Positions 8,151 to 53,400 of a stretch of 64,000 bases of DNA are shown in pieces. How positions within the stretch are numbered: the stretch's first letter is position 1; each line of letters begins with the position of its first letter. The DNA lies in the NCBI GenBank assembly GCA_963921825.1, contig OY997589.1, positions 23,953,482 to 24,017,481 of the forward strand, written 5' to 3'. Under the pieces are notes generated by a model. That model was not told the DNA's origin and did not search any database. It saw nothing but the letters and a program-made list of their open reading frames with translations. This DNA comes from Erodium maritimum (Eukaryota > Streptophyta > Magnoliopsida > Geraniales > Geraniaceae). Both the position numbers and the translations under genes were made by a program.

Positions 8151-8355
8151 ACACTGTTAACTTCCTTCCCAGGTCGTTGGCTTTTCTATCCTTTTCGTTT
8201 TTAGCTGTCAATGAACATATATGCAAATTTACTATTTTAGGACCTATAAGGTAGATCCCGTGTTACAGAAACTTCTTAAATTTTACTATTATATAATCGG
8301 CCACTAGGACATGAGTTTACAAGATAGTTTATCCTCTTTTTTCTATTAATACTTA

Positions 8356-9431
8356 TAAGGTGAAATCGGCTACAAACCAATCTTAACCTAAAAACTAGAG
8401 AACTAATCCTACCCACACACACCTAACATCCAACATTCCCCTTGATGTCACATCATCACCCCAATTGCACCCAAACTCACGCCACTTTCATCATTTCTCA
8501 CATAAGCAAGGGCATAATTGTAAAAACATGTTGCCATGTGGACAAGTGTCCATTTTTTTCTTCACCAATTCACTAATTTAATATTTCCCGCTTCGTTTGA
8601 ACTCCGATTAGCTTCAAACTTGCGCTAATATTTTTATTTTTTCAAGGGCTTTAAATCAAGATCAATCATGAATATATTTTGAAGCACGAAAATAAAAAGG
8701 TATATCGGAGTAATAAAAAAATGTTGAATGTTGATAAATCTTCACTAATAAATGTTTTATATCAGAGGTATCAAACTAGTGCTAAATGTTGATAAAAGCA
8801 TGTACTGAGGTGATAAAAACCATGTTCAATTTTGATAATAAGTGTGATAAACTAGAGTTTAGCGTCGATAAAAAACCACGTGATGGGGGATGATAAAACA
8901 CACGTAATTGAATGATAAACCTAGTGTTTAGTGTTGATAAAACTAGTGTTCATAAAAAGCACGCGATGAGGTGATAAAATCATGATCAGTTTTGGAAAAT
9001 GGGGTGATAAAACCAGTGTAAAGTGTTGATAAAACCAGTATAAAAGTGTTGATAAATCCAGAGCAAAGTGTTGATAAAAATTAACCAGATTTTTTTTATA
9101 AAAATCAACACCGAAATAATTTTTTTTTCGTGCTTCAAAATATATTCATAACTTATTTTGATTTAAAGCCCTTCAAAAAACAAAACTAATGGCGCAAGTT
9201 TGAAGCCAATCGGAGTTCAAATGAAGCGAGAAAAATTAAATTAGTGAATTGATTAAAAAAAATATGATAGTTTTACTAAAAAGCCCTTACCACTTATTAA
9301 AAAATGCTGTTTTTTTGCAGTCAACAAGTCAACTATTCAATTGCATCTCATCCATCCATTCTTAAAATGGATGGCTTAGATTGGTTCTCTAGTTTTTAGG
9401 TTAAGACATGGTTTGTATTTGATTTCTCCTC
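8356..9431. mobile_element. Non-autonomous MULE foldback element with 9-bp TSD
   Basis: The 1,076-bp unit is flanked by perfect 9-bp direct repeats TAATACTTA (8347-8355 and 9432-9440), the Mutator superfamily hallmark. Its ends are inverted repeats: CTTAACCTAAAAACTAGAGA on the left is matched by the reverse complement of 9394-9416. About 110 bp of subterminal sequence (8588-8697) is repeated inverted at 9125-9240. The core, 8700-9110, is a degenerate tandem array of units like TGATAAAACCAGTGT. There is no coding capacity. Both distinct ends match those of the 15.98-24.75 kb element, in opposite orientation. Confidence 0.85.
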
Positions 9432-9585
9432 TAATACTTAATACTGTTTTTTCAAAGAGTCGATGACTTCATTCATACAGAATAATCAAATACGATTTTA
9501 TGACATAACTCTCTCAGGTGAAAAACATAGTTAGGGACCTGTCAAAGATAGGTGTATCGACCATTTATGCCATAGAAAAAAATCT

Positions 9586-14165: not shown

Positions 14166-15600
14166 TATCAACGATTAAGAGACTTTAAGGCAATTACTCA
14201 TAAACGCTAAAAACACAAAATAAAGATTAAGGTAAAAATATAGAGAAAGAATGGTCCAATTAGATGGATCATATTTAAGCGCATCACACACCACCGAGAC
14301 ATGTGAGCTCAACACGGGAAAGTTGTTCGATGAGGGCAGTAGATAAGGTCTTATCCGAAGTCTGAAATTGCTCATCAAACACTATGAGAAGTGAATAAGC
14401 ATTTCCATGCTTCTCCACCAAGCCCCTTATGCCAACGAATATATGAGTCTTTATGAACAAGACAGAAAGTCAGTTAGACTTCTCCCGTTTTTCATGTATC
14501 TCACTTTCCACTCGGTTGGAGTCTAAGGCATGTGGCTCATCCTTACGAATGGCATAATCCATATCAGCCACTCCTACAACGAGAAATACCTCTATTTCTA
14601 GATGAAGTAGTTTTCCCCATTCAGTATGAGAACCTCCACTTTGAGGTCATTATCATTCAAAGAGTTAGATGTTGCAAACATTACATGTATAGTATAGGAA
14701 ACAAAAATGAGATTAATTATCATGCTTTACATACATAAGTATACAAAATGAATCTATCGACGTATAACTTATATGTGGGCTAAAGTCATACGCAAACAGA
14801 GCATTCACACAAATCAACCAATAAAACTATTAAAATTATGTTCACTTTCCTAACTCATGTGGGTAAATTAGAAAAATAAATTTGATATTTTATTTAATCA
14901 ATTATATAGAGTTTAATAGAATATCATGTGGGATGAATTTTATTAAACTTTGATATAATTAATTACAACTTTAATGATTTGTTTTCATACATATACATTG
15001 TTAATCTAAAAATGTTGTGCCTACTATTTAAACAAACAATATAACATACATAAATTAAAGATGGATAAAAAACACCATGAATATGACAAATTTCGAGCTT
15101 ACAAAAAAACATGGCAATTTTCAGTTGAAAAATCATCTTAACAATTTCACTAATACAATAAATACGTTTCATTGGATATGTATAACAAAAAAGCCAAGCG
15201 ATGAAGCCTTTGTTGATTATGAGGCAGTTTTTTTAATTGGCCTGAACTCAAGCCCAAGCTAGTCAACGACCCACATAACATATTTAACCCGAAAGTCGAC
15301 CCAGCATCGACCCGAGAACCGATCAACAACCCGATCGAGAATCCGATCAATGATTCGTTAAATCGAACCAGAACCCGGTCCACACTTATTTGACCCGTCT
15401 TCAACCTCCAAATGGGTAAAAAAGCCCGATTTTAGACCAAGTTTCAGATCCGGTTGGTTCTACCTTAATTTGGCACCAAAAAGTTCATTTTAAAGCCTAG
15501 AATGTATGGAAATCGATTTTTCAGATGATTCCCATAATCAAAACACAAGGATAACATACCATAATCAAAACCCAAAAATTAATAAAAGTTGAAAATGCAA
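14166..15600. other. AT-rich intergenic sequence, no gene seen
   Basis: No coding region was recognised. A GACCCG/AACCCG-rich stretch at 15290-15420 is compositionally distinct and may be internal sequence of the retroelement whose end lies at 15.6 kb. Confidence 0.4.
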
Positions 15601-15624
15601 AAACAAAATAGAGGATAAACATGT

Positions 15625-15974
15625 GCTCTAATACCATATGTAAGAACTCAATCACGTGATCTATAAATATAATACAATCGCTTTGATGCATAATTAAGAT
15701 CACTTACCTCCAATCATTCCTTTCTTGAAGATGAAACTTTGAAGACCCAAACTTGATATTCTTGTTTTTGATCTTCCAAATCCTTACACCTTTATTTTCC
15801 ACTCTCCGATGATGTATGAGTATGTGATAAGAATTATCTGCGTGGACTTGGGACATATTAATACTCATTTTCTCTATCTTCAATCAACCATTATTAAGTG
15901 AAGAGGTATATCTTATGAGCTGTGTTTGTTGACAAATTGGACAAAAAATAATGACCATAAACCTTATGATATCA
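15625..15974 (-). mobile_element. LTR-retrotransposon end with primer-binding site (minus strand)
   Basis: On the minus strand, TGGTATTAGAGC at 15636-15625 matches the plant initiator-Met-tRNA primer-binding site with one change. It follows two bases after a CA that would close an LTR (15640-15639). A possible LTR start, TGATATCATAAGG, lies at 15974, giving a putative LTR of 336 bp abutting the MULE end. No gag/pol or second LTR was found. The LTR start is a guess. Confidence 0.4.
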
Positions 15975-18523
15975 AAAGGAAGAGAATAAATCAAATAGAA
16001 ATCATGCCTTAACGTAAAAATCGTGTGAACTCATCCAAGCCATCCATTTCATAAATGGATGGATGAGATGCAATTGAGTGGTTGACTTGTTGACTGCAAA
16101 AACACAACATTTTTTGGTAAGTTGTAGATGATTTTCAGTAAAACTATCATATCTTTATTTTTACCAATTCACAAATTTAATTTTCCCTCCTTTGTTTGAA
16201 CTCCGATTGGCTTCAAACTTGCGCCAATATTTTTATTTTTTCAAGGGCTTTCTATCAAGATCAGTCATCAATATATTGTGAAGAACAAAAAAAATTATTT
16301 CGGGGTTGATTTTAAAAAAATTATATCTTGGTAATTTTTATCAACACTGAACACTGGTTTTGTCAACACGGAACACTAGTTTTATCACCATATTTTACCA
16401 AAACTGAACATGACTTTTATCACCTCATCACTTGTTTTTTATAGGGGTTATCCCGTATCCTAACCCCAATCTTTCAAATATGTTTAAATCCTAACCCAAT
16501 TAAACCCATATAGTCAAGTAGCAACATTGACCCCATACCATGCCACTTTCCGTTTAAAAAATTGGATGGACGTTATATGGGCTAGAGAAAACTCGAATTT
16601 GCCCTCCAAAAACGTTGAATACACGTTGCCACACTCTCTTGCATATTTTCCAGAATATAGGTTCGTCTCTCTCTCGAGAGAGATTCAGCTCTTCTTCTTC
16701 TCGGTCAGCTCTCCTTCTTCGTTCTCTCTCAGTCAGTGTTTCCTCAGTTCCCATGCCATTGAGCAGGAGTTTCACATTGAGCAGTCAAAGCCGAGACGTG
16801 TATTGATAGAGGTAATCGACATATTCCTATCTCCATTTTGTACTCTAGTTTTGTTAGGGTTTATATGAAATCGATTTGGGGTTTTATGGTCTCAGTTAGG
16901 AAATCGATATGGGGGTTTTAGGGTTTCAGTTAGGTAAATTGATTTGGGGGTTTTTGTTTTTTTTTTGCTCTGAAAATCTCCACCCTGTCACATGTTTTTG
17001 CTGAAATGGATTGGTCATGCAATAACTGATTATTTTGGTTGCGAAACAAGTGATTTCTGCAATAAGTTTGCTTCCTCATGATCTAATAACAGATTAGCTA
17101 GAACATTGAATTGGGTAATTTCGGCTGTTACATACATAACCATGGTTTGGGGTCTGTTTCTATGACGAGAGACTCCGTTTTACTTGAAGTGATTGATACT
17201 AGGTACTTGGTTGTTTGATTATAACATTCATGGGTTACTATGTAGTTTTATCTTTATCTACATACATACACACATACATGGACCATTGAGATTTTAGGAG
17301 CCAATGTCTGACATTTTGGAGTCATTGCTCAGTTGCTTGTGTATGTTGTTTATTGTCACAACTCTCCCCTCCATGTATTTCTTAAATAGCTCAAGTGGCA
17401 GTCTGGCACTAAATGGAAACACCTCACTGCTCCCTTGTAACTATGAGGGACAATTGGTCAGGATGTTAATAAGTTCGTTTCTGATTTGCTTTTAGTGTTT
17501 TAAAGTGTCCAATACCTTGTGTGCGGGGAGATTTCATTGCTTCAAAATATTGCCTCTTTTTACTTCATTTAAATCCATCTCTTGGTGCTATCTCTATATG
17601 TGTTTTCTGTATAGCTGAGTAGCATTGCATTCGGTCCAACTTCTTCCGGACTGCAAACAATTATTGCATCTCTGAAACTCACACTAGTTGAAAATTTTAG
17701 AACAAGAATGTTGCCCAAGTTCTATTAGACATGCTTAGTGTTAGTGAACCCTGGAATGTGGCTCTATCTCTACACTACAACTACATACATACTCTGTCCC
17801 TTTTGTCAGCACATAATTGAAAACCTTTCCTTTATAAATGTCCATCTCTACACTACACTGTAGAGAAAGAGTGTAGTGATTAATTAATAAATAATAATTA
17901 TATATTGAAATGGAGAAAGAGCTTTTGGTGAAGACAATAATATGGATACTGTTCATTCGTTTTTTTGTCTCATGTCTTGTGTAAATTTCAAAGTAATGGA
18001 TCAGTCAGACAAATCTTTCTCTGCTGCTGTAGCCTCAGCCTGGCCCTGTAGCTGTAGTCTGTACAGAGATGGATGTTTTTATGTGCTGAAATTAACATTA
18101 TTAACATTGAGTAACAATAATATATGCATAGATGACCAATTGTGTTATCAGTATTCTCCCTGTAGCATAAGTATTTTATCCATCTTTGAGTCATAGTATT
18201 CTCCCTGTACCGATTTAAACATAGTTTTGTTGTCATTTAATTATTGATTAAACATATTTCATTCATAGAATAAGAAAGCTGATTTGTTCTACTAATTAGT
18301 TACAATAAAGTGTCATACTAGCAACATGTGATTAATTGTATGAATGTAATTTGATTACATTAAAGTAATAACAGATAAGAGGGTCGGTTGCTTTTACTTG
18401 GTCTAAAATAAACTGTGTATTTGTTTATGTGCAATGAAACATTTTTTATGGTGTATTTGTAAATAAATTGTGTATTTGTGTATTTGTAATACTAACTGTG
18501 AGACTTTTAATGTTGTTTACTAG

Positions 18524-21500
18524 ATGGGGAAGAGGAAGATGGGGGAGTTGAGATTAGTTGATGAACCATCAGATGAGGACTTCGATGAGTTGTTCGATAA
18601 ACAAATCATAGACAGTGAGATGCTGGAGGATGAAATAGATGAAATTACTACTGAGGAACTTAAATATGGTGGAGGTTCATCCAGTGAAGAATCTGATGGT
18701 GATGGAAGTTCATGTAGTGAAGAATATGATGAAGAAAGTGATGAGGAAGACGATGGAGAAGATGTTGAAAGAAAGGAACAAGGAGAGAAATGTGACGGGG
18801 AAACCAATGAAGAACAAGCTGAATATGGAGAAGAAGGCTTTGAAGTTGAAGATGAAATGGAGGAGGATCCCATGACGGGTTTTGCTCCATCAAGTAGCAG
18901 GGAGCCAAAATATTGGGACAAGTCTTGTTCCTTGGAAAAGATACAACTGCAAGTAGGGGACAGATTTGAGGATGCTGATTGGTTACGTGTGGTACTTCAA
19001 AACTATTCAACTGAGAAGGGTTTCAACTACACATACAGTAGGAACCAGAAGAATGATGGCATTGGAGCGGTGTGCAAGCTACCTAAATGTGGGTTCTACA
19101 TATGGTGTGGGTACATTAAAGCTGAAGGATGTCTTGCAATCAAAACCTTCCGACCCAAGCATAATTGTCAAACTGCCATAAAAGGGAAAAGCATCACTGC
19201 CCGTTCCCTTGGATACAGGTATGAAATTATGTTTGGTTTTAATTTAATGTTAATTCTAGTTCTGTAATGTTAAATGAAGTTGTCACTGATTGATTGTGTA
19301 TTTTCATGTTTTGATGTAGGTACGCACATTACATAAAAGAGCATTCAAGTATCGATCGTGAAGAGTTCAAGAACAAGATACAATCCGATCTACAGATAAT
19401 ATTGAAGCCAAATAAAGTAACTCGTGTGATCCGAGAAGGAAGACAGGTTTATGAAGAAGAAATAGGTCTTCAATACGGCATGCTGGAGCGATATGGTAAG
19501 CTGGTTATGAAGAGTAACCCGGGAACCCAATTCAAGCTCCTTACCGACTGCAAGAACCCGCCTCGGTTCAAAAGGCTGTATTTGAGATATGGAGCTCAGA
19601 AACTAGGGTTCATTAACGGGTGTAGGCCCTTCATTGGATTAGATGGATGCCACTTGAAATCCCCGCACGGTGGCATCCTTCTAGGAGCAGTAGCTAGGGA
19701 TGCCAATGACGGCATGTTCCCACTTGCAATCGCAGTGGTTGAACAGGAGACAAAAGAGTCATGGAAATGGTTTGTTGATGAACTGTTTGAAGACATTGGT
19801 GATGGGGAAGAACAAAGATGGGTATTTATGTCGGATAAACAAAAGGTAAGATTATTACTTTGGAATTTACTGTTTTGTATAGTTTAATAAGTCCTAATTA
19901 TTTGAACTGAAAACGTTACTTCTATTTTGAACAGGGTTTGGTGGAGGTGTTTAAACAACGTCCAAACGTTGAACACCGGCATTGCATGAGACACCTCTAC
20001 GAGAACTGGTTCAAGAGCTTTAAGTCCCAACAAATGAAGAAGATGTTGTGGAAGTGTTCACAAGCAACATCTAGAGAAGAATATGAGGATACGATGGAGG
20101 AGCTAAGGAAGATTAATCTGAAGGCTTACCAATGGTTGAGAGCTAGACCAGCAGAGAACTGGTGCATTGCTTTCTTCAGCACTGGTTGCAAAAGCGCTGC
20201 ACAGACAAACAACATTTGCGAGACTTTCAACAGCTGGATCAAGAAGGGCAGAGCAATGCCAATACTAACCTTCTTAGAGTATTACCGCACGAAGCTGATG
20301 TCTTGGTTCTATCGCAAAGGGCTATTGTTTGACGAAGATGACGACAAATTGTGCCCAAGAATGCTAAAGAGGCTGACAGACAACCTGACAATAGGACAAA
20401 AGCTGAAGGTAGAACCAAGTTCGCCCATATTGTATGAGGTTACAAGCTTCAATGAGGAGTTCGTAGTGAACTTATCCTATGGCACATGTACATGTCTGTT
20501 GTGGCAGCTTAGTGGCCTGCCATGCAAACATATTGTTGCTGCCCTCATTAAAGCAGAATTAGACCCTCATGTGTTTGTGGACTTCTATTATACTATGAAG
20601 TACTTCAAGCAGGCATATACAGAAGACATTTCACCTGTCATTGGCGTGAGTAGGTGCAAGAATGTAGAGAAGGAGGACATGATTTTAGCTCCCATCATTC
20701 GCAGGCAACCGGGTCGACCCAGGAAGAATAGAGTTAAGGGGTGCGTTGAGACAAGTGGGAGTCTACAGAAGAAGCCAAAGATAGGAGGAGAGGGCCAAGA
20801 GACTCATAGGATGCCAAAGAAAGGGATCATAATGACCTGCAGTATTTGTAAGAATGTGGGTCACAACAAAAGAACCTACTCAACGAAGGACTCTGGAGTC
20901 ACCGGTAATGAGTCAGTGCAAGCAAAAGGAAAAAAGAAAGCAGAGAAGGTCCAGAAGATGCTTCAATCCCAGTTAAGGGTAAACTTCCCGTAAGAAGAAC
21001 ACCATTGGATGATGCAGTTGTGAAACCAAGAAAGAACATTCCCGTTCGTGTTGCAGGTAATGAAAATATTGTATTTTTATACGTTTCCTTACATCAACTG
21101 TATTTTAATTAGCTATTTACTTATATCGTAATCATTACTTATGCAGTGTGTTGAGAAACTAATTGTTTAAACCATTTTACTTCGTGTTGCAGGTTCTGAG
21201 AAAATAGTTCAGCACATACTTGAGAAAAAGAGACAAGCAAGCTTTGCTAGGATTGAGAAAGAGAGAGAGGCAAAGAGAGTGAAAAGACAACAGGCTAAGA
21301 AGAAGGCTAAGGAACAACAAAGAAAAGAAAATGAAGCAGACTTTGGTGATCACAATGATCCAGTAGCAGACCTCGGTGAATCTGCTGACCCTGTAGATGA
21401 ACTTGTGGCACTTATTGCAGTAGATGAACCTGCTGACCCTATAGATGAAAATGAGCAAAATGCAGATCACGAGGAAACTGAGGAGGATGAGGAAACTGAG

Positions 21501-22381
21501 TCGAATGAGGAACATGATGAACGAGTTAGAAGGTTTCAACTTGTGGATGAGGATGATGAGGAAGATGATGTAGTTAATGAGGACGAACATGTGGAGGAAG
21601 AGTTTGATTTTGGAGCATGTGAAGGTGAACCTCTTACTGTTGAAGGAGATGAACCTGCTGGATTGGATGGTGACGAAGATGACTTAGTGGATAATGTTAT
21701 AGTTGATGCTGCAGCTAGTGAAGTAACCACTCAAGGAGTAGTGGCTGGTGAAGTTGATATGACAGCTCTATTGAAAATATTTTGGACCATCACACCTGCT
21801 GAAAAGATCTTGAAGAGGGAACAAGAACTTCGTGAGGAGAGCTGGGCACGTCTGAAGAAGAGGCAACAAGAACAAGAAGAGGTTCAGTGGGAAAATGCAA
21901 AGGTCCATCTTTTACCCTTCTCATAAACTACTAATTTTTCATCATTCTAAATTACTAGAAATATTGTTATGTGTGTGTAAATGAAGATCTAATTAATCTA
22001 TATTAATCAAATGGTCCAGTTAATCTCTGTTTTTGTAAATGAAGATATAATTAATCTAATGAATATCCAGTTAGCTATTAGGACTGATCAACTAGAGTTT
22101 GGAACTATGTGGTCAACTAATCTATATTAATGAGCTTTTCCATTCCAAAGGAGGTTTCTGGTTCTACTCTTCTAGATAATATAGAAAGGGACATATTCAA
22201 GTTTGTCCTCACAGATAATCTAATGATATGAAATGTAGTTGTTGCCCAAATAAGTTTGTCCTCACAGTTTGGAAGAAGTTTTTATAGTAGTTGCAGCTTT
22301 ATTCTTTCCAGTTATGTCATGTTAAGTTGACATTATGTTTGGTTTCAATTTCCACAGGCTGCTGTAGGATTAGGAACATGA
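18524..22381 (+). CDS. mudrA-like MULE transposase, C-terminal frameshift
   Basis: Exons 18524-19218, 19320-19845, 19935-21056, 21193-21902 and 22358-22381 have GT/AG borders. Order of parts: an acidic N-terminus; a DBD_Tnp_Mut-like zinc region at about 145-230 (CKLPKCGFYIWCGY); the MULE DDE core with PFIGLDGCHLK (Asp near 340), MSDKQKG (Asp near 403) and NNICETFNSWI (Glu); a SWIM finger CTCLLWQLSGLPCKHIV; and a zinc knuckle CSICKNVGHNKRTY whose last Cys is Tyr. Exon 3 stops at 20993 as read, but a one-base shift near 20930-20950 restores a frame (LPVRRTPLDDAVVKPRKN) that splices into the acidic exon 4 and ends AAVGLGT. So a recent 1-bp loss likely removes the C-terminal third, while the catalytic core stays intact. 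A non-coding first exon at about 16660-16810, ending in a GTAATCG donor, is plausible. The product would cut and move MULE ends in the nucleus. Confidence 0.85.
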
Positions 22382-22814
22382 CTGAAACAAGCAAGAGCTA
22401 CTCATGGTTGTAGGATAGTGAGTGAAAGGCTATTATGGGCATTTAATATTGAACATTATTTTGTTTGGTGGCAGACCACATGTGATGGACATTTAATATG
22501 AGTCCCTTTTGTAAATAGAATTTCACATATGCAGTCACTTTTCAGAACTAAGTGAATGGAATCAGAATTTACAGGTGTAAGCTTTTGTAATTACTGTTTT
22601 TAGTTAAACTAGTTTATGTACTAAACTAGTAGTTAAACTAGTCCATGTATCGTCATCTTCTTATGCACTAATATTCTGTTAATGAAATGAAACAAGCATC
22701 CAAACACAAGAATACACCACTTAATACATATTAGAGACCCTACATGTTACAATGTCAAGATCGGAGCAGGTACTCCGCAATAATAGTACGCACTTTTTCG
22801 GGTTCCAAATTCAC

Positions 22815-23318
<504 letters not shown>

Positions 23319-23414
23319 TAATAATTAATCAATCAATTAATATACATACCATCATCATTTTACTTTATAAATTATTTAGTCAACACTTAATTAATCAACA
23401 CAACACGTGAATAT

Positions 23415-23510
23415 GAATAGGATGAGGAGGAAGCAGTACTAGAGTTGCAGGTCTTGAAGCTGAACAAAACAAGAACACCAACACCACCAGAGCTAGAGCC
23501 AGAGCCAGAG
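23415..23510 (+). other. Possible third captured exon
   Basis: A segment beginning after AATAG at about 23418 reads DEEEAVLELQVLKLNKTR then TPTPPELEPEPE up to a GTCTAT at 23511, with splice-like borders on both sides and AT-rich flanks. The family was not recognised. It could be a fragment of a captured gene or chance. Confidence 0.3.
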
Positions 23511-24269
23511 GTCTATATCTTTATTAATTTAATCTTTCTGATAATATATTATAATATTTATTATTAGATAGATACATTGACTTTGATTAAGGGAAGATTA
23601 TGATTAGGTTAAAAAGAGAAGAAATAGAGGAGAGATGGGTTGAGAGAAGGACGTGAGATTGTTGCTGAAATGGGAAGGATAAAAGAAAGCTTTTGAGCCA
23701 ATATTACATGGGTAATGTAGTCTTTTCACAACAACAAAAGAAGTCATGTGGGGAACTTGTTTTTGATATTCGACACTTACTGTTACATGTAACAGTTTTT
23801 AATGGTTTTTGAAAATCAATTTTGAAAAATTGGTACTATCTAATACATTTTATAGATGAGGGTTATGATTTGAAGTTTGACCTTAGTACAACGAGGTGAC
23901 ATGGAGTTTGGTCTTTTTTATATCATCTCATCACATGTCTAGTTTTATCAACACTGAACACGGGTTTTATCAACACGGAACACTAGTTTTATCACTTCAT
24001 TTTACCAAAACTGAACATGATTTTTATCACTTCATCACTTGTTCTTATATCACCTCATCACATGTCTAGTTTTATCAACACTAAACATTAGGTTTATCAC
24101 CACATCACATGTGTTTTAGCACCTCATAACTTGTTTTTTTATCACTTCAGCACATGTGTTTTATCACCCTAACATATGTTTTTTATCAACATTAAACACT
24201 ATTTTTGTCAACATCGAACACTAGTTGTATCACCTTAATATGAAACATTTATTAGTGAAAATTTATCAA

Positions 24270-24396
24270 GGGTAAACTACAAATACCTACCCCAACAATA
24301 TAACTAAACATCTGAGTAGGTATCAGTTAAAAAAAAACTTTACAGTAGGTATCAGTTAAACGCTACAAGTTTGGGGTAGGTATTTGTAATTTACCC
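24270..24396. mobile_element. 127-bp MITE with 9-bp TSD, nested in the large MULE
   Basis: Ends GGGTAAACTACAAATACC and, on the other side, GGTATTTGTAATTTACCC form a 26-bp inverted repeat with one mismatch. The flanks ATTTATCAA at 24261-24269 and 24397-24405 are identical 9-bp duplications. This fits a miniature Mutator-type element that landed in the right arm after the larger element was in place. Confidence 0.9.
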
Positions 24397-24981
24397 ATTT
24401 ATCAATACTCAACAATAGTTTTATCACCCCGATATAATTTATTTTTTTCGTGCTTCAAAATATATTCATGACTGATCATGTTTTAAATCCCTTGGGAAAA
24501 AATGACGCAAGTTTGAAGTTAATCGGATTTGAAACAAAGCGGAAATGATTAAATTAGTGAATTGGTAAAGAAAAAAATGGACACTTGTCCACATGACACC
24601 ATGCTATTACAATTATGCCCTTACTTGTGTAAGAGATTTTTGAATTGGGCGTGAGTTTAGTAACTTGTGGATGCCGATGTGGTATCATGGTGAATGTTAG
24701 ATCTTACGTGTGTGTGACTCGAATGAATTCACACAGTTTTTAGGATAAAAACTTACACATGCAACATATTTTTATAATCAAATATTATATACACGATACC
24801 CATGGAAATGTAGTTCAAATTGAGCACCACGCATCAATATGTTTCAACTCATATCATATTTCCCCTGTAACTCCAATGGAAAGATACACAAAACACAATT
24901 CATATATCAAATCAAACCTTTATAATATGATACAACATTTTCCAGCTTCACACTCCTAACTCCTTCCTCATTCTTGCATGA

Positions 24982-27900
24982 TCAGACGGCATAGATCTTT
25001 ATAATCTGGTTGATCCCTGCACGGCACACTGGGCAACCCCATTTCTTTTCCTTGATCTCATTCAGACAAGACATGCACCCGGCCATATGCCCACATGGAA
25101 CACAAGCTCCCTCCACAGCAGCATCCAAGCATATCACACAAGATGAACATGTACCTTCCTGGTTCATACCTGAGCTTGCAGGTACAGTCTCAGCATCCAC
25201 GGGACTAGAATCGATCGATGGATAGTGAACTGGTCCATCTCCTACAATCTCATTTGTAGATGGAACTAAATCTGAGGCATGGATGTTGTTGTTGTTGTCG
25301 TTCTTGGTTTTCTCAGGTATATTGCCTATAGGCCCGGCTTCTGGCACTGCCCAGTTACTGCCACTTGCTTTTGAAGGACCATCAGTTACACTTTCTCCAC
25401 AAGTATCAACAGAGTGGTTTGTACTAGTAGATGGGCCTACTTCAGTAATTGAGAATGCGTTGGCATATGGTGAAACATCTGCTGCTGATGAAGACTGAAC
25501 GGAGGCACTCATTGCCAACGCTGTTTCTAAATCTTCCATCGCAGGTGGCGCTGTTGGTAGAACAGCTTGCGTCTGTGCACTATGCATGACCTGAAAATTT
25601 TCAAGCATTCAAAAGATATAAATGCAAAAGAATGATGATCTGCGTATCACATCTATATGCTTATAATTGATCGTTAGTAGTAAATGCTCAATTTTTAGAG
25701 ATATTTCTTTGTACTATACATTTTAGTGTTCATACCAAGCATATCGATGCACATCAAACTTGGTCAGAGAATTTTAGATGTCTCGCTTGATGTCAAAATT
25801 CTCCAAGCAAACAAGAGATATAAAGAATTCAGTATGCATTTCACCTGTGGGATTCCTTTGCAGGCATCTGAAAACCACTGTAGTTGCTGTTTGTCAGTTT
25901 CATTTTCCGGTGCAAGTTTGATGCGCGTTTCTGAAGAGAAGTAATAATTCGAAATTACCCAAATGCAAAACACAATATTTGTCTAATGTCCTATCACAAA
26001 ACTAGCAATAATTGTTCTTTTCTTTGCCTAGCAATGAAGCTAGGATCATTCTTTGGTTGTATTGGGTTTTCAAGAAAGTTAGATTTATCGAAATTAATAT
26101 AAGATTTCCTGCCATAGGTTCTATAGTTTCAGTCTTGCTGCACTTTTACAATCTCTCTTTTCTTTCGTTATTTTAGATTTAGTTTGAAATAGCTCAACTG
26201 GTCATTGTACTTACGCCAGAGTGTCCGAACCTTGCACCTCTCTTGGTAGGTGCAAACATTCCGTCTCCTCCTCCTGCCTCGTGAGACTATCAATGAATTC
26301 AAAAACCAATCAATATAATAAGAGACTGGTATAATATGAGTACGATATCTAGAATATAAAGAAGGGGTATTTGAAAGTATGAAGAGATTACTGCGAGAGT
26401 TATCAACAATTGTCACAGTAGGTTCGGGTTCATGAATCTTCATATCCTCCAAATTGGTTTTCCACAATGCAAGAACAGTACGTGGTTTGGCATCCTGCTC
26501 ATTCAAGATTATACTGAATAAGATAACTAAAACATTTTGCCAATATAGCCGTTTAAGCAGCAGAGGAAAAAGAATTGACTGGTGAACCAGAGGTGTCATA
26601 GAAAGCATGGTACACGAAATTGGAGGGATGCATCAAGAAAGCCTGGCCAATGCTATCAATAGTTTCAATTATATATTCAATACTATTAAAAATCAAACAG
26701 ATTACACCTTAAGCTATAATTCTATCAATAGTATTAAATTTTACAAAACATCCTAGTAAAATGAACTCTATGCCATTTAGAATTATTAGTTATTATTATT
26801 AAAACCCAGTTCTCAAACAAAGTGACAAGTATACCTGAAAACTAGCATATATGGCAAGCTGAAATTTGGAAGGCTTCATAGGATTACGGGTTCCACAAGG
26901 TAAAACAACAACCCAACTGCAAATGATGTAATAAAATAATTGGCGTAAGTACCAATTCCTTGAACAAAATTACTTCAAGAATAGCATGAGATGCACAAAC
27001 TGATTACTCACACTTTTCTTGAGACCAGTTGAGGGGCTAATATTTCAAGAAAGCCTGGACCATTGAATTCCCGCATCCAACCAGAAAATAAGCAGATATG
27101 ATTCTACAATGTAACAGATAGGCATGCCGATTTAGGTTTGGAAAATTGCAAGTTGCAATAGCACTTGATAATCAGAGTGTATGAGTAACAATCAAAGGTC
27201 TACCTCAATTAAGCGTACAATACTGCTATACCCTTTTGCTCTAGCAATATCGAGTGGAGTCTGCCAACCGTCGTTCATCATCAATGCATTTGCTGAAATT
27301 TTGAGCAACAAACCATCAATTTAGTAATTTCATTGAATGCGATAAATAACAGTAATTTTACAAAACTGAATCTATAATTCTTGCACATCGCCAAATGGAC
27401 ACTTATTTTGGGATAGAGGAGTATATTACTTTGCAATCATCACCATATATCATTACCTCCATGCAAAAGAAGTAACTTAACAGTGGGCTCAAGGCCTCTC
27501 TTTGCTGCATGGTGTAAGGGAGTCCCAGCACAGCGACCTAGAATATGAAAACCAGGATATACTTGAGGTTACTATGTCATCTCTCATGCTGACAACAAAG
27601 TAAATAAGCATATTTTGCATGAAAGAAGACTGTCAGTAAGCTTTTGGCATGATAAAACAACTATCTGACATTTATTGCAAAAATCAGAAAAAAAATCCAG
27701 TGAAGCTCCTATGTGAGTTTCATAGAAGCCAAGGAGCATCCCCAGTTACCATAAACAAAGAAGCCAATATTTAGACACACTTGTCAATTTTAAATGCACA
27801 ATTTCACCAGCAGCAACTCAGCAAATTGATAATCGAAAACACCCCATTATCGAGCATTCTCCATTACCCTTTTTTCTAAACCAAAACAAGCAGCAATCTC

Positions 27901-33975: not shown

Positions 33976-35706
33976 CAGTGGCGGATCAAGCCTTTCCAAC
34001 GAGAGGGGGGGCACCGATTTTTTTATAATAATAATTAACGTAAGAGCAATAAAAATAACATTAATTTTTTTTACATCGTATAAAAATAATAATTAATACT
34101 TGTTTCAAAACATGACTTTGAAATTTTATATTTTGAAAATGTTGTAAAACACTTTTGTTGTCAATACAATAAAAAAATCGCCGTATATGATATTTTTTGA
34201 CCTCTTATTCGATTTCTTCATCTTCATATAAAAAAGGGAAAATTTCAATTTAATACCCTGACAAACATTTATTTGCAATATAATACCCTAGCTTATTTTT
34301 TTTGCAATTTAATACCCTGACAAACATTTATTTTCACTTTCATACCCAACTGTTAACTTTCCATCCAAAATGGATGAAAAGTCCAAAATACCCCTTGAGA
34401 TCAATCATATTTTCAAAACCTACCACAAAAAAATCAGATTTTATATATATTTCAAAAAACTATATTTTATTTCAAAAAATATTTTTAAAAAATCAGTTTT
34501 TATATATTTCAAAAATCACATTTTTATATAATTTAAAAAAATCAGATTTATTTCAAAAAATATTTTAAAAAAATCAGTATTTATATATTTAATTTTTTTT
34601 ATATGTTTTCAAAAATAGATTTTATTTCAAAAAAAATATTTTAAAAAAGCAGTTTTTATATATTTAAAAAATAAATTTTTATATATTTCATAATAATATT
34701 TTTATATAATTTGAAAAAACAGATTTATTTCAAAAAAAAAATTAAATATCAGTTTTTTTAGATTATAAGAATCAGGTTTTTTTTATATATTTTTTTAAAA
34801 TTAGACTTTATTTCAAAAAATATTTTTTAAAAAAATCAGTTTTTATATATTTCAAAAATCATATTTTTATGTAATTCAAAAAATCAGATTTATTTTTAAA
34901 AAAATTAAAATCAGTTTTTTTTTATATTACAAAAAAACAGATTTTTATATATTTCAAAAAATTATATTTTATTTCAAAAAATATTTTTAAAAAAATCAGT
35001 TTTTATATATTTAAAAAATCAAAGATTGAAGGGTGTTTTTGGTATTTTTTGAAAAAACAAGGTCATGTGCAAAGCACATGACTACTTTCCATCCATTTTG
35101 GATGGAAAGTTAACGGTTGGGTATGAGTGAAAATAAATGTTTGTCAGGGTATTAAAATGCAAAAAAAAAACAAGCTAGGGTATTTTACTGCAAATAAATG
35201 TTTGCCAGGGTATTAAATTGAAAATTTTCCTATAAAAAATTGTGGAGACAAATTTTCTTTTGAAATATCCATCTATGATTATAATAATTTTTATATTACT
35301 CAATCCAAATTGATAGTAATCTCAAATATGAAATGATAAATAAATTTAAATTATTAATAGTATTTAATTTTAAAACAAGGGCTTATATTACATAAATTAA
35401 GAAACTTAAATATTATAAAATATAAAAAAGTTACAAAAGTAAAAACTTAATACAAAAAATAATTAAAATTGGAAAATATAAGAAAATACAGTAAAAATTT
35501 GAGAAGTTATGATAAATATAGATTATTAGAAATGAAAATAGAACTCAATTATGTAATTAATATTTTTTTTCCCCAAAGTTTAGGGGGCACAAGGGTGCAA
35601 AACAGAATATTAATAAAGAAAATTAGCAAAAAAATATTAAACATATTAATTTTCTCAAATTCGAGGGGGGTACGTGCCCCCCGGACCCCTAGTAAATCCG
35701 CCCCTG
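33976..35706. mobile_element. hAT-type element with perfect 8-bp TSD
   Basis: Starts CAGTGGCGGATC and ends AATCCGCCCCTG, an imperfect inverted repeat of the common plant hAT type. The flanks ACGAAAAG at 33968-33975 and 35707-35714 are identical. G-rich and C-rich blocks sit just inside each end. About 1,004 bp of its 1,731 bp is a later insertion (34236-35230 plus one TSD copy), leaving roughly 727 bp of AT-rich, non-coding hAT sequence. Confidence 0.85.
34236..35230. mobile_element. 995-bp MULE-type foldback element nested in the hAT
   Basis: Ends GGGAAAATTTCAATTTAATA and the reverse complement of the right end (GGAAAATTTTCAATTTAATA) begin inverted repeats that stay similar for about 180 bp, including ACCCTGACAAACATTTATTT and CCATCCAAAATGGATG. 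The flanks TATAAAAAA at 34227-34235 and 35231-35239 are identical 9-bp repeats. The core is an AT-rich degenerate array of units like ATCAGTTTTTATATATTTCA. There is no coding capacity. Confidence 0.9.
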
Positions 35707-44400: not shown

Positions 44401-47400
44401 CCAGGTGAACAATTTTTTAGATGTAGCAGTTCCACCAGTCTGGTTCATAACCTCAACAATCGCTGCTGTATGCCACACTCCACATGCAACCTTAAGGGTC
44501 TTTAATCCATTCAGCAACTGAACTTCCCTAGGAAATATAGCACTTGAACGATCTCCATGGCCTAATACACCATATGTTCCATCGCCAAAAGTGAACAGTT
44601 TACCATTGGAAGTTGCCAATGCAGAATGCCATGTGCCACATGCAACTGATAAGACTTGAAGTCCTTCTAAGGGACCACAGACTCTTTTTGGTACCCAGTG
44701 GCTAACATCAGTTCCATGACCAAGAACCCCCACATTATGGGTTCCATCACCCCAAGTAAGTACATCGCCAGATGCAGCTACCGCACATGTATGATACTCA
44801 CCACATGCGAGAAATTCCACATTAGAAAGTGCCAAAGATTCAACAAGATGTGGGCTGCTAAAGTCTCTGTCAACACCGTGACCAAGTCTTCCCCCAGATT
44901 CATCTCCCCAGGTGAATACTTCACCTTGTCTTGTTACAAGAGCAATGTGTCTCACACCACAGGCAATCTGCTGAACATCAAGAACTACATTTGATTCTAA
45001 AGGCTTGGGAGCGAGCACGTCATTTTTTGTCGGGAAGGGGCTCACAGAACCATCAGGTAAAACCCCTTCAGACCAAACCTCTCCCCATAGATAAACATCA
45101 CCTAATGATTCTATGTCATCTTGACCAGATACTCCGCTTGAACAGCTAGGAGTGCTAGAAACACTAACTCGAAAACCATCGCCACCACCTCCTCTTAGTT
45201 GCATATTTGTGCGTTCTGAACCCACATCTGAGCTTACCAAGTAAATAGGGCAGTGGAGTTCAACAGAAGCCCGACCATGAGCAATAGGTGGGGTGAAATC
45301 TAGGGCTGCACCAACAGGATAGCCATTTTGAAGAAAATCTCCACCAAAACTAATCTGAAATAGAAAACAACACAGACAACTTACTACATGCTTTAAAAAT
45401 GTATCCTGCAGATGGCAGTTAAGAAAACAGCAGTTCAACATGTTCATGCAAATTGTTGGCATTCATATGGTATAGTTGTATCGGTAAAAATTAATTTGTT
45501 TCGTAATTTAGATTTTAAAACTTTCTATGTAGGTTAAAATTTTCATGTATAATTCATCAGAAGAAGTAAAGATCATTTGCACAATATCGTAGCATAGGTA
45601 CTGGATCCCGGAGGCTTCCTTTTCTCCTTTTTGCCTTGTTTTTCATTCTGATACACACAGGCAGTGGCTGCTCACACAGGAAGGTCAACAAGTTAGGAGT
45701 TTCATATGCTTTCTTTGCTCTCAGTGTGGAAGAGTGTGACATCCATGTTTTAATATAATTGTTATTATTTATTTATTTATGAATTATCATAATTTGAATT
45801 TTTAAAATCCCACAATCGGTCTGACATAAAATAGCTATTGACTTACCAACTGAAAACCTCGTTCAGTCGTTCCTACTGGAGTGTTGAACTTGAAAGGTTT
45901 ATGAATTAAGGTTCTCAACTGAATGGTGTGCATAGTTTCCTCAACACACAATTTAGGGTTAATTGTCAAAAACTGCACTGAAGTTTAGTCCACAAATGAA
46001 AGCATGCATAAACTTTTGTCCACGTTTTGTGGGTGTACTGAAGTTTTGTCCACGCTTTGTGGGTGCACTAAAGTTTTGTCCACCGACTTTTTTTACAAAA
46101 ACGTAATGGGATGTTCAGAATATCAGGTCTGGGCAGTTCTTCGCGGACTCGATAAATTTGTGGGCAATACATAATGCATTCTAAAGTTGTGTGGGCAATT
46201 CATAATTCATTCTATAGTTGTGTGGGAAATACGTTTTTCTAAAAAAGTAGGTGGACAAAACTTCAGTGCACCCACAAAGCATGGACAAAAGTTTATGCTT
46301 GCTTTCATTGTGGATAAAACTTCAGTGCACTTTTTGACAATTAACCCCACAATTTATGTACACGGACGTACACCATTTTTGGGGGGTTAATTGTCCAAAA
46401 CTATATTAAAGTTTTGTCCACAAACGGATGCAACTATAGAACGCATTATGAATTGACCAAACAACTATAGAATGCATTATGAATTGCCCACACAACTTTA
46501 GAATGCATAATGTATTTCCCACAACTTTAAAAAGTCGGCGGACAAAACTTTAGTGCACCCACAAAGTGTGGACAAAATTTTATGCATGCATCCGTTTGTG
46601 GACAAAACTTTAATGTAGCTTTCTATTCAATCGTAGTGCAACATTAGATAATGTATTGATATTAAAAATGATAATCACATACAAAAATAGTAGTAACACC
46701 AAATAGGGGTTGAAAAGTAGAGGGAATTCTTAAAACTGCCCAAAAGAATTGTGCGTGGACAAAAAAACTGTCCAATTAAAAAAAGACAACCTATGAGCTG
46801 CCTATTGTATTGTGCACGACCGAATATTTTTACATTTCATTAACATGGATGGAAGATGACTGAATATTCTGTCAATATGGACGGAATATCCTAACACGGA
46901 ACTTACTTTTTCAATAAACCCCAAACTACCCCTCAACCTTAAACTACCCTTTTGATTTCCCTAAGGCCTAAACACGCTCTAGTAAACACTAACTCATTCA
47001 GAGCATCCTCAATGGTGGGCGAATACGGTTTGTCACGATTTGCTTGGGCGCATCAGCGGGTGACGGGGCGAAGGTTTCATTGCCCGAGCAAGCCCAGCAC
47101 GGAGTGAAAGCCCAATGGCTAGTTGGTTGAATCCCCTTGCGTCGCGTGTCCACTTTTAAAAATAAATAAATTGAAACAAATCTGAAATATGTCCCTCATT
47201 TTCAGTATAAATGCCCCCAAATCAGCTGTAAGAATATACCATTCACTCTTTAATTTTGCACCCTCGAAAAAGATTCTCTCAACTTCCCTAAGCCAAGAAG
47301 AATTAGGAATTGCACCCCCAATATGTGCCGAGTTGCAAAGAAGTAATTGGATTCTCTTGGCAGGTATGGAATAATTGGTTGAGAGTTGAGAGGGAAAGAT

Positions 47401-50400
47401 TCGGTTTGCAACCGCAACACAACAACCCGTGCACATAGACAGAACTCGCGAGGAAGGAGATGCACGCTTTATGACCAACTACTTATCAACCCCGACAATG
47501 TACAACAAAAAAAACAATTTTGTCTTCGATTTTCAATGACGAAGGAACTGTTTCGTCGCACTATGTGAAGTTTTGGTAGAACACGATACTTACTTTTAGT
47601 CAACTCTTGATGCGATCGGTAAGCCTAACTTCTCTCCCTACCAAAATTCACAATAATTATTCATAAATTATTCTACAAACTAATATTTACAAACGGGAGA
47701 AAGCACGAATTTAGAGTAAGAAGATATTACTAGTATGTTATCGGTACATTTGGTCCAACTTATCTATGAAACAGAACTAGGGAATGGTTGCATGTTAATG
47801 CAACCTGTGACTTCCCGGGTATGCTAGGGAGTCTTGCCTGCATGTAGACAATGAAAGAATCGTCCGGTGGCACGAAAATGGCAATTCCAACACGAGGATA
47901 ATTCGGACGACTATCATGCTCAAAGTTGTCACCGAATATTTAGATATGAAACACTTTTTTCGGTGTCGCGAACTCGAACGACAACATCAACATACTCAAT
48001 CAATCAACGTTTTTGACAAAAGTTATCCAAGGCCGTCAACCACGAGTGCGCTACATAGCGAAAGACATATACACTATTTCTTACTATTTAATTGGCGGTA
48101 TTTACCTACCTTAGGCTAAAACAATACAACTACCATAACTTTCTAAACGCAAGTTATTTGTTGCACATCAAAAGGAGAAAAGGAACTTATTTACTACACA
48201 TCAACCAGTGAAAGAAAGGATACTGAATAAGCATGTGGGATTGTACAAACTTGTTTTCACATCCTTACTCGCCTTGATAAATTATGGGATAAGCAATCAC
48301 TAGTCATAAGCGCGTGCATCGTTATGCACAACATTATAGTTGGGGATAGATGCCATGCACAAAAAGGGGCTTATTTTTTTGGAGCAAAAAATACATTTTT
48401 ATAGGGTTATCACCTCAGTACCTTAACTATGAGTTTTCTGTCACCTCAATACCCTAACTTTTATTTGTAACACCTTACTACCCCATAATGCATTTTTTTT
48501 TCACTTTGATACCCGCCGTTAATTTTCCATCCATTTTTGGATGGAAAATGGTCATGTGACTGGCGCATGACCCCAATTTTTTTAAAATGATAACACTACC
48601 CTTTATTCCACTAAAACTCTAAATTCTCTTTACCTTCTCATTTTGATAAGGTCCTTGTGCTTGGGATCGCGTTATGGAATAAGGGTCGTAGCATTCATTA
48701 GAGTGAACGCAAGATTTCATGGTACGGCTCGTTGTAGAGGGAACCCGAGGACCTCGTAGGAGACCAAAGTACTTCTTTACAATTCTCAAGTCTATTTTAT
48801 TGATTGTTCTCTCTTGGTATATATAGCCAAGATATTACTTGCTGCAACCCAAGTCCTAATACAATAAAACTACTAACTTACCAAATCCTATTACACTTGT
48901 AAAATAAGAAAAGCAATTAAAAGGAAACAACTCAAACTAGGACATTAATTAAAAGGAAACCTAATAACCCACCAAACCCTAGCTGCCGGTCATACCCAAT
49001 GTGGTGTGTTATCCCATTCCGTTACGGTCCGCGAGGCCCATAACACATTTCCTCTTCATTTGACAGTCAATCTATCAAATCTCCCCCCACGGCTCATACA
49101 CGAACTAGCAACGAGCTCGACACCGGAGCTCCTCCGACACCTCTTCTCCTCCGTCTGCAGCGACCTCTCCCAGCGTCGTTCATGGTACGAGCTCGTTGAC
49201 TGACACCCTCTCCGAAGCCACCTCTCGGCCTCCTGACCACCGTGCTCGCTTTGTTCCTCCTCAACCAACATGCAGCCAGCGAGCACCACACAGAGACGGC
49301 TGCAAACTACAACCCAAGCGGAGCTAAAGACGAGGAGGCGAGTAGGTTTGGATATGAACGAGAGCAGCAAAGCACCGAATTCAGTATGTGATTTTTCACT
49401 CTCTATCTGGCTCAATATTCTTAATTTATGTTTGGGTCTGTGGAAAATTTAGATTTGGCTAATGGAAACGGTGATATTTGTTCAATTTGCATGTGGGTTT
49501 TGTCGTGTTAGTTGAGTCTTGTGCGAAAGATTCGAAATTTCTCTGGTTTTTGTGTCTGGTGCATTAGATTGAAATTGCAGAGCTTTTTGTTGTTGTTCAT
49601 GTCATTTTGTTTTTAATGCTGATGATTTATATCCAATTAGTGTTGTGTTTTTTCTGAAATGGGTATGTGATCTAACTTGTAAAAATTCAGCTATTATGTG
49701 TGTTTTGGTTCTTTTTCTGAAATGGGTATATGATTTTACTCACAAATATTCCATTTTTGCTGAACTTTAACAGGCATGTTCATGGAATGATATGGGAGGG
49801 TATGGATGAACAAGATTTGTTCCCAGAAGCTTCAGGGACTGTAGGAGCTTATTACCAGCGGGAGACAACCAATTTAGGAGAGAAAGGGTCTTAATCTGAA
49901 AATGGTCATTTGTAATGGTTGGATTAGTAGCTTGTAGATGGTCTGGTAGTGGATTAGGAATTTCACACTTCAATTTGTAGTGGTTTGTAATGGGTTTGAT
50001 GATAATGTTGTTAATCTTGAACTTCACCCTTCAATTCAATTTGATGATAATGTTGTTTCCTTGAATTGGAAAATTAAAAAAAATTAAATCTGATTTTTTA
50101 TAATTATAATTTGATTTATGTGGATAGTTTAAATAAAGTAAAGAATTAATAAAAGTAATAGAAAAATAAAAATGATTTTTAAATAAATATTAAACAAAGA
50201 AAAGAAAAAATTGATTTTTATAAAAAAATGTTTTTTTTAAAAAATAAAATCTGATTTTTAAAAGTAAAAACTGATTTTTGAACATATAAAATTAATTTTT
50301 TAAAATGAAATTTAATTTTTATAAAATAAAAAACTGTTTAAAAAAACTAATTTTTTTAATATAAAAATTGATTTTTATAAAACAAAATAGATTTTAAAAA

Positions 50401-53400
50401 GTAAAAACTAATTTTGTAAACGAAAATTTAATTTTTATAAAATAAGAAATAGTTTCTATAAAATAAGTAAATAAAAAGAAATTTTGAAATTCAATGGCAT
50501 GTTTTTGAAAATTTGACTATTAATGAGGGGTATTATAGACTTTTTAAGTGTTTCCATCCAAAAATGGATGGCAAGTTGACGGCGGGTATCAAAGTGAAAA
50601 AAATGCATTCTAGGGTAGTGAGGTGCCACAAATAAAAGTCAGGGTATTGAGGTGACAGAATACACATAGTTAGGGTATTGAGGTGAAAATAACCCTTTTT
50701 TATAAGGTGCAACCCAAAACAGCAAGCAACAATGAGAATCACAGTACAGTGCCCAACCTCCTGTAATGAGGAAGGAGAGGAGAGGATATCTGGGGCCAAA
50801 GCATCACGACAAGCACAACACGAGGAGACGGCTACAGAGTAGAGAAAGCAAACCTAAGCCAGAGCAGGAAAGGCTCCACACCAGAAGGTTTAAGGAAGGC
50901 GAAAGACGACAAGATATCGTTGGGGGCTAGCACCCACACAAGACCGACGAGCCTCCGACCACCTGCAACGAGCTAGGGCTGGGAGAGAGGAGGACCTCCA
51001 GCACCATAGTATTGCGGTAGCCACGAGCACGAGGAAGAGGAGGCGGCGACAGAGCAAAATAGAACCCAACCGACACCAAACCAAATCCGAGAAACCATCA
51101 GGAGGAAGAAGCAACATCGTGGGCTAACGCCCAAAATTTTGTTGGATGGTGAGGTGCAACCCGGCACCAATAATTCATCAGGGCCGCTTCTAAATTTCAA
51201 CATAATATTGGAGAACAATCAAAGGATCCAAGATCAGGGGACCCATCAAAGCCTCGAAGTAGACTTTATCATACACATTTGGATTAAGTTTGGATATGAA
51301 CAATTTTTTTGTAATTTTCATTTCGTATTCCAATTATGTCATTTTCCTTTCGTAATGATTTCAATTTCTTATTTCAAATTATTATGTATTTGTCCCACTT
51401 TTTACCTGGGCGGATATGCCATTGTTGAGCAAAAGTGCAACCTGAACCCATATATAAAATACCCCCATTTTCTCTCCCTCTCCCCACCCACTTCTCTTTT
51501 CTTGTTTTCACATCTTCATCTCCTTCTCTCCACCCAATGATTGTTGTACGACGTAATATATTATTGTCTGATGAAGAAAACGGCTTACTCATTGTAGCAA
51601 GACTTTTTCACGATGAGCTCGAAGGTGAACAGAGAATGACGTCTACTTACACTTCTTATAAGACTTGCCCACACCATATGCTCCTTCTTGAAATCACAAA
51701 CAACTGAAAGATCATTGGTTGAAGACTACTAAAAAGATAAGGAAATCTAATAGAATTTATCAACAATGAGACCGAAATCGAACCCCCGAGCATATTGATG
51801 ACTGACTGGGGTTTGGGTGCGGTTAATGCCCAATACATCTTGAAAAGTGAAGCATCATTCCAAAAAAAAAAGATGAAGCGAAGTGACAACGTCATACCAC
51901 GACTAGGCAATAAGAAATTTATAATTTTGGTTAGTTTTTTTTTTCAATTTAATGCAATAACATTTAAGGTTATTAAATTAATGCAATTTCGTTTCAATCT
52001 TTTAATTTGGGAATTTCGTTATAAATTTAGTATTAGCCCAGTTTGGGCTAATACCATTGAGGTAGCCCAACTTTTTCATTTTCTCTCTCCTGTGAAATAC
52101 CAGTTATGACAAAATTTGTAAAAAATGATAGGTGCTAGTCGGGTGATGGAGGCCCCTAGGCGCTAGTCGGAGATTAATCGGATTTCTATTTTACTATTTT
52201 TAAATCATTAATAATGATAATAATAATAATAACAATAATAGTAATAATAATAATAATTGTCAAAAGTTACTGTTTTTTGTCACATATCGTTTACATGTCT
52301 TTATAAATTGTTCACATATCAATTACATGTCTTATGAATTGGTCACATATCTTTTACATGTCTTATGAATTTAACAATAAGGCACACAAAGTGTCGAAAG
52401 TTTGGCCTAAATTTAGTCCAATAAGTGACCATAATTTAGGGTAGTTTTCTGTACGTGACCAATACAAAACCTACACAGGATTTGTCCAAGCTTCAGTAGT
52501 TAAGTACACTAATAGGCATCAAAGCAAGTGTAAGGATTCTGTTGCTCAAAAAGTTTAAGTGCGAAACTAGTAGCACTGATATCCAAGGTGAAATTGGAAT
52601 ATGAAACTAGAAATCTTCAATTACTCGTATATAACTCCCAAAAGAAAAGGTTGTATCCACTTCTTTTCTCATTTTATTCCGAAAATCAACAACCAAGTTT
52701 GACATATAACAGAATTCATGGTTTATGATGAACCTAGTCTTAACCTTGTGAAATTCAGTGATTTACATGTTCTGTAATGCATATTAAGAGAATCTTGAGT
52801 GAAATCAAAATTAAACTACAATGATATATGTTGAAATAAGAACTCACGTCGGGAAGCTCACTCTTAGTGCGTCGACTATGTTGTTGTCTACCAGAAGTTA
52901 ATGCCTTAAGGCCTGCAAACCATACCTCTACCTCAGCTTGGTCCTTGCAGATCTACAATTAGATATCATCAAGTAAATTGCTAGATTTAAACATGTTCTC
53001 TAATGTCCATAAAATGAATAATTGATTTAGAACGAAACACTGACCAGATCAAGAGATCTATCACCCTTATTATAAATAAGTGAAAATGACAAGTAATCCT
53101 TTTCAGGGCGCAAATATCTTTTGAACACGGGCTGTAAAAATAGCAAATAGAGGTTGTTTAATTATTTAAACACGGCTGTAATCAAATTCGCAACGTATAT
53201 CATCAACCAGTCATAGAAAATAGTCAAACTCACTGTTCTCTGTCCGGCTATAATCCGTGAAACAGAAGATAATTTCAGGTTTCTCTCTTCTCCACGAGAA
53301 TACCAAATTAGTGTTGTTTCATCCTGTTAATACAACTAAAGTTGAAATCATTCACGTACTTGAGTGTATTGACGACTTGCAAAAGGTACAATCTCAGTGG

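Follow-up and report, generated by a model that had tools for sequence, protein, structure and literature searches.

The genome of Erodium maritimum contains a stretch of Mutator-like sequence in which a transposase gene lies beside fragments of a nuclear and of a plastid gene, raising the question of which part of this stretch is the mobile unit. The window (i.e. the whole stretch of DNA analysed, 64,000 nucleotides, C2:23953482-24017481; loci are given as contig and position) was examined and copies were searched for in the 763-Mb assembly. The original prediction had drawn a single Mutator-like element (MULE) across 15979-24745, with a mudrA-like gene, a WOX1-type homeobox piece and a petB piece between its ends. 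The features named are present, but the unit was given the wrong boundaries: two Mutator-like elements are nested here, and the true unit occupies 16444-23913, inserted in a non-autonomous element. This reading as a whole, comprising capture, repair, transposition and landing in the outer element, carries very high confidence. The nested elements and the target-site duplications (TSDs) are as follows.

16444-23913, plus strand: inner Mutator-like element without terminal inverted repeats (TIRs), 7,470 bp, starting GGGGTTATCCC and ending GGAGTTTGGTC
16435-16443: left TSD of the inner element, TTTTTTATA
23914-23922: right TSD of the inner element, TTTTTTATA
15982-16434, plus strand: left half of the outer non-autonomous Mutator-like element (scored loci mostly start at 15980-15982)
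23923-24748, plus strand: right half of the outer element, about 25 bp of the family right end being absent

The ends of the inner element were located by reading its flanks, which carry a perfect 9-bp TSD. A 9-bp match at this spacing occurred at one of 56,512 window positions, that one being the element itself. Comparison of the first 200 bp with the reverse complement of the last 200 bp gave a score of 33, within the range of 200 shuffles (mean 24, maximum 40), indicating that the element is of the non-TIR type. A genome search with 20000-21000 recovered three close full-length matches (95–98%), and reading of flanks identified seven further family members with similar termini besides the copies in the window and on C3. 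Among the nine members with both flanks read, TSDs were perfect (9–10 bp) in seven, matched at 8/9 in one and were lacking in one; this count leaves out unpaired left ends (C5:42.45M and C5:42.47M), a right end (C1:112.91M) and weaker end matches. Perfect 9-bp TSDs flank the window and C3 copies, C5:16.10M, C6:20.49M, C4:8.68M and C9:20.34M (a run of A), whilst that of C8:63.6M has 10 bp and that of C1:11.37M (i.e. L033) is the imperfect one. The inner family therefore has the mostly 9-bp TSDs of MULEs. One member bearing the transposase, C8:63.6M, gave no WOX or petB match.

The copy on C3 identifies the mobile unit directly. With 15000-26000 as query, this copy aligned to 16442-23914 and to nothing outside; it has its own 9-bp TSD (TAGAAAGTA) and lies in flanking DNA unrelated to that of the window. 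The same ends, the transposase, the WOX piece and part of petB are present and, with gaps excluded, 147 of 6,805 aligned bases distinguish it from the window copy. As the C3 copy combines its own TSD with a common cargo, transposase, WOX and petB must have moved together on the inner ends. The proposal that these three travel as one unit thus survived, with an internal deletion in petB on C3, whilst the outer ends turned out not to belong to the unit. A copy of the block with its own TIRs and TSD had been named beforehand as evidence against the larger unit; the C3 block corresponds to it in its TSD and in lacking outer sequence, except that its ends are not TIRs.

The outer element belongs to an abundant family with thousands of first-look candidate matches genome-wide, and its match in the window spans about 15980-15982 to about 24748-24751. 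Both ends match, as predicted, the two ends of a smaller element at 8.36–9.43 kb, in inverted orientation (8482-8633 vs 24497-24648, 84%; 9255-9397 vs 16017-16159, 83%).

8356-9431, minus strand: relative of the outer element, 1,076 bp, TSD TAATACTTA at 8347-8355 and 9432-9440

This relative is small and non-autonomous with a perfect 9-bp TSD (ends and TSD read by eye). Candidate matches to the two outer halves numbered 4,520 and 6,102, of which 40 were scored. Apart from the window, twelve loci appeared in both lists of scored candidates; the halves abutted at a target-site-sized gap in nine, overlapped in two (C3:14.90M and C6:34.32M) and lay about 4 kb apart in one (C5:31.12M). Two of these nine, the empty siblings L051 and L052, were read and align across the point where the outer halves meet, with a single target copy in between, the window halves having been joined by script solely to display the empty site in this alignment. 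Both siblings extend to a further right terminus followed by TSDs, read by eye as TTTATATGG (9/9) and ATGATGAAG/ATGATAAAG (8/9), whereas the window copy diverges at about 24748, without the right terminus that they keep.

The inner element contains the following transposase gene, whose splicing (two introns) was deduced from GT/AG sites and reading frame.

18524-20993, plus strand: mudrA-like transposase gene, exons 18524-19218, 19320-19845 and 19935-20993, 759 aa

Pfam matches in the spliced 759-aa protein comprise the MULE transposase domain (PF10551, E 2.1e-14, 54.2 bits against a cut-off of 27.6), PF00872 and a SWIM finger (E 2.3e-9), in agreement with the mudrA-like gene originally proposed and placing a MULE-type transposase inside the element. 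A 1-base difference near 20950, relative to three other copies, ends the window frame early with loss of the C-terminal tail; the break falls downstream of the MULE domain and SWIM finger, both of which are open. Frameshifts also occur downstream of the SWIM finger in the C3 and C8:63.6M copies, and at several sites in C8:46.5M, some of them upstream of the finger. With a frameshift in each of these four copies, the present autonomy of the element, and that of the three other copies, is no more than putative. No Ulp1 peptidase domain was detected by Pfam in the six open reading frames (ORFs) scanned, the scan covering those ORFs rather than the whole element in six frames.

The cargo lies towards the right end of the inner element and consists of a nuclear piece split by a plastid piece, next to a remnant of the element's own sequence.

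22749-22823, minus strand: residual sequence of the element itself (part of the GRF-zinc-finger-like frame seen in L033)
22824-23087, plus strand: captured WOX1-like piece, first part, homeodomain exon (donor C4:14868923-14869537, minus strand)
23088-23308, plus strand: 221-bp piece of plastid petB, enclosed by the captured WOX1-like sequence
23309-23636, plus strand: captured WOX1-like piece, second part, with exon end, GT intron start and more gene sequence

Both predicted gene fragments were recovered by Pfam, as a homeodomain in ORF 22744-23097 (E 3.7e-15) and cytochrome b/petB in ORF 23112-23321 (E 1.8e-27). The donor locus on C4 is a WOX-type gene with an open homeodomain frame, preceded by a frame that starts MWMMG, which we take to be a WOX1-like feature. 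The gene matches 22822-23087 and 23308-23636 of the window, with no interruption of its own at the petB site. The GT splice site after the captured exon indicates that genomic DNA was captured. The homeodomain exon in the window has a 12-bp deletion that is present in neither C3 nor the donor. Over 561 gap-free columns (ATC-repeat zone left out), differences numbered 17 between window and donor, 20 between C3 and donor and 7 between window and C3; 15 differences from the donor are common to both copies, whilst 2 occur in the window copy alone and 5 in the C3 copy alone. A spliced-copy origin by reverse transcription was considered for 22324-22488, which blastn showed as joined exons that are separate in relatives; this was dropped as the window and one relative show deletions with the intron acceptor still present.

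At the left capture join, CATCCTTGC meets GTCGTCGCG and the two sides share GC; the right join lies in a GAGA-rich stretch with GAT in common. Four inspected relatives keep their own sequence between the joins (L031, about 1,150 bp; L033, 1,078 bp; L034, 1,067 bp; L036, 620 bp), so that the capture in the window element replaces 0.6–1.15 kb of family DNA. A minus-strand GRF-like frame spans the left join in L033, where the Pfam GRF match is weak (E 0.01, below cut-off); this frame, scanned in L033 alone, is possibly an accessory gene of the inner family. No transposase match was found among the matches listed for L033, nor perhaps for L031, L034 and L036.

The petB piece differs from contig C40 by 5 substitutions in 221 bases (98%). 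This contig (118,135 bp) holds an uninterrupted petB frame at the matching site and, from petB and its size, would be the plastid contig, giving the piece the close plastid-genome match of a nuclear plastid DNA insertion (NUPT). No target duplication of its own was seen at the joins of the piece. The donor gene on C4 lacks petB, and among the 22 matches WOX is joined to petB only in the C2 and C3 copies. The petB piece of C3 has an internal 125-bp deletion and has one change from C40 in common with the window. Two other sources were rejected, namely C38, where the petB piece begins 55 bp later in a truncated frame, and C9:20.90M, where the match is just 83%. The C38 piece (i.e. L058, C38:19200-20300) lies on a 56-kb contig, fused to other sequence, and is possibly plastid DNA within the mitochondrial genome.

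The outer right half contains a further insertion.

24270-24396: 127-bp small inverted-repeat element within the outer right half, ATTTATCAA on both sides

Its inverted repeats (GGGTAAACTACAAATACC... and ...GGTATTTGTAATTTACCC) and flanking copies were read by eye; the element is missing from siblings L051 and L052, and forms a third nesting level. Elsewhere in the window, inverted-repeat structures at 34235-35231, 45944-46596 and 48407-50689 are likely to be further small transposons.

These observations suggest the following history. A non-TIR, mudrA-bearing element lost a stretch of its own sequence, 0.6–1.15 kb long to judge from the four relatives that retain it, probably where a double strand had broken or a fork had stalled. 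The gap would have been refilled with about 0.6 kb copied from the WOX1-like gene on C4, with short sequence matches at both joins. A scrap of plastid petB, 221 bp long, would have been inserted into the WOX part at an ATC repeat, either during this repair or in a separate one. As a chimera, the element then moved at least once as a single unit by way of its own ends, presumably by means of its own family's transposase. The copies on C2 and C3 resulted, and the C2 copy inserted into a non-autonomous Mutator-like element that had decayed. Several observations weigh against parts of this history. C8:46.5M has both ends and no matching duplication, C9:20.34M ends one base short beside a duplication that is merely a run of A, and the right end of C8:63.6M is reduced to about its last dozen bases. 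At least one frameshift occurs in all four transposase copies compared. Two cargo copies were found, making one post-capture transposition the minimum demonstrated, and the WOX and petB pieces may have arrived in one event or more, in either order.

Whether the whole 15979-24745 stretch could nevertheless move as one Mutator-like element on its outer ends, both of which do come from one family, can be answered almost with certainty in the negative. The exact ends and duplications of the inner element already refute this model, and it would have to accommodate a C3 copy consisting of the inner block alone with its own TSD, the existence of empty outer siblings, the missing outer right terminus in the window and the failure to find a second outer-plus-inner copy among the best matches listed. 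A narrower disagreement concerns the autonomy of the inner element, which may move only with transposase from a related element, its own mudrA gene being a passenger relic. The frameshift near 20950 and those elsewhere in the three other copies favour this relic status, whilst the open MULE domain and SWIM finger, and a perfect TSD suggestive of fairly recent insertion, speak for a functional gene; the relic interpretation is a serious contender, judged slightly the weaker of the two.

Two further alternatives address the origin of the plastid patch within the nested reading. In one, a WOX1-like allele or paralogue already containing petB served as single donor and both pieces were taken in one step, as the clean position of petB inside the WOX piece might suggest; the divergence of petB from C40 (5/221) is also of the same order as that of WOX from its donor (17/561). 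C4, however, the one close WOX1-like locus that was found, has no petB, and the fusion was confined to C2 and C3 among the 22 matches, making this one-step origin rather unlikely. In the other, petB arrived after the WOX capture as an ordinary NUPT inserted into a resident element. Organelle DNA inserted by end-joining has blunt joins or joins with short matches, and the joins at the ATC repeat are of this kind, without a visible target duplication; the donor locus without petB also fits, whereas no intermediate with WOX but lacking petB occurs among the 22 matches. The chances of this later arrival are evenly balanced. It is conceivable, if improbable, that one repair event joined nuclear WOX1 and plastid DNA, replacing part of an accessory gene, and that the element still transposes and may make WOX1-related transcripts that affect the donor gene, whether from an ORF of 117 aa whose homeodomain is altered or in the form of small RNAs.

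Comparison with known systems, drawn from excerpts of the articles cited, places both elements among established transposon types. Non-TIR MULEs such as Mutavine-6 resemble the inner element in combining a mudrA-like transposase with 9-bp duplications and no TIRs (PMC2528002). Host-derived sequence beside the transposase is likewise known from grapevine MULE families, in which ULP gene sequence lies downstream of the transposase ORF (PMC2528002), and from Arabidopsis Kaonashi elements, in which ULP (Ulp1 domain) lies beside mudrA (PMC2528002; PMC13317346). The inner element differs from these in that its host piece is WOX1-like with plastid petB rather than Ulp1, and in that the capture cut into a region which, in a relative, contains a GRF-like frame on the minus strand. 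The original prediction that a transposase is usually missing from fragment-capturing MULEs agrees with the definition of Pack-MULEs and is qualified by the grapevine families. Captured fragments are also described in maize Mu elements (PMC3276141).

Like Pack-MULE and Pack-TYPE elements, the inner element carries a host gene fragment (the WOX1-like piece, with its donor locus on C4), including intron sequence, between transposon ends; those elements are non-autonomous by definition, and the mudrA gene inside the inner element means that it is not filed as a Pack-MULE. As packFinder treats any transposase match as the mark of an autonomous transposable element and so leaves its carrier outside the Pack-TYPE set (PMC8903248), elements of this kind may be undercounted. 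FoSTeST, described in animals, explains multicopy Pack-TIRs by template switching followed by transposition (PMC8277862). It resembles the present case in the replacement of own sequence by distant DNA, short joint matches and subsequent transposition, and differs in its animal hosts and lack of plastid DNA; a swap of element DNA for distant sequence, with such short matches, is compatible with gap filling or with template switching (PMC8277862). The proposal that transposase, capture and plastid DNA together would be unusual holds for the plastid patch and less so for the rest, transposase-bearing MULEs with host sequence being known from grapevine and Arabidopsis. No literature precedent for plastid DNA in a MULE was found, judged mostly from titles and abstract openings and hence weak evidence. 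Organelle DNA here became mobile after landing in a transposon. The locus provides a well-resolved gene capture by a transposase-bearing MULE, one assembly holding the donor gene, the capture joins, capture-free relatives, the plastid patch and two post-capture insertions. The transposons themselves are of known kinds; what stands out is the plastid patch, and the record of the capture is unusually complete.

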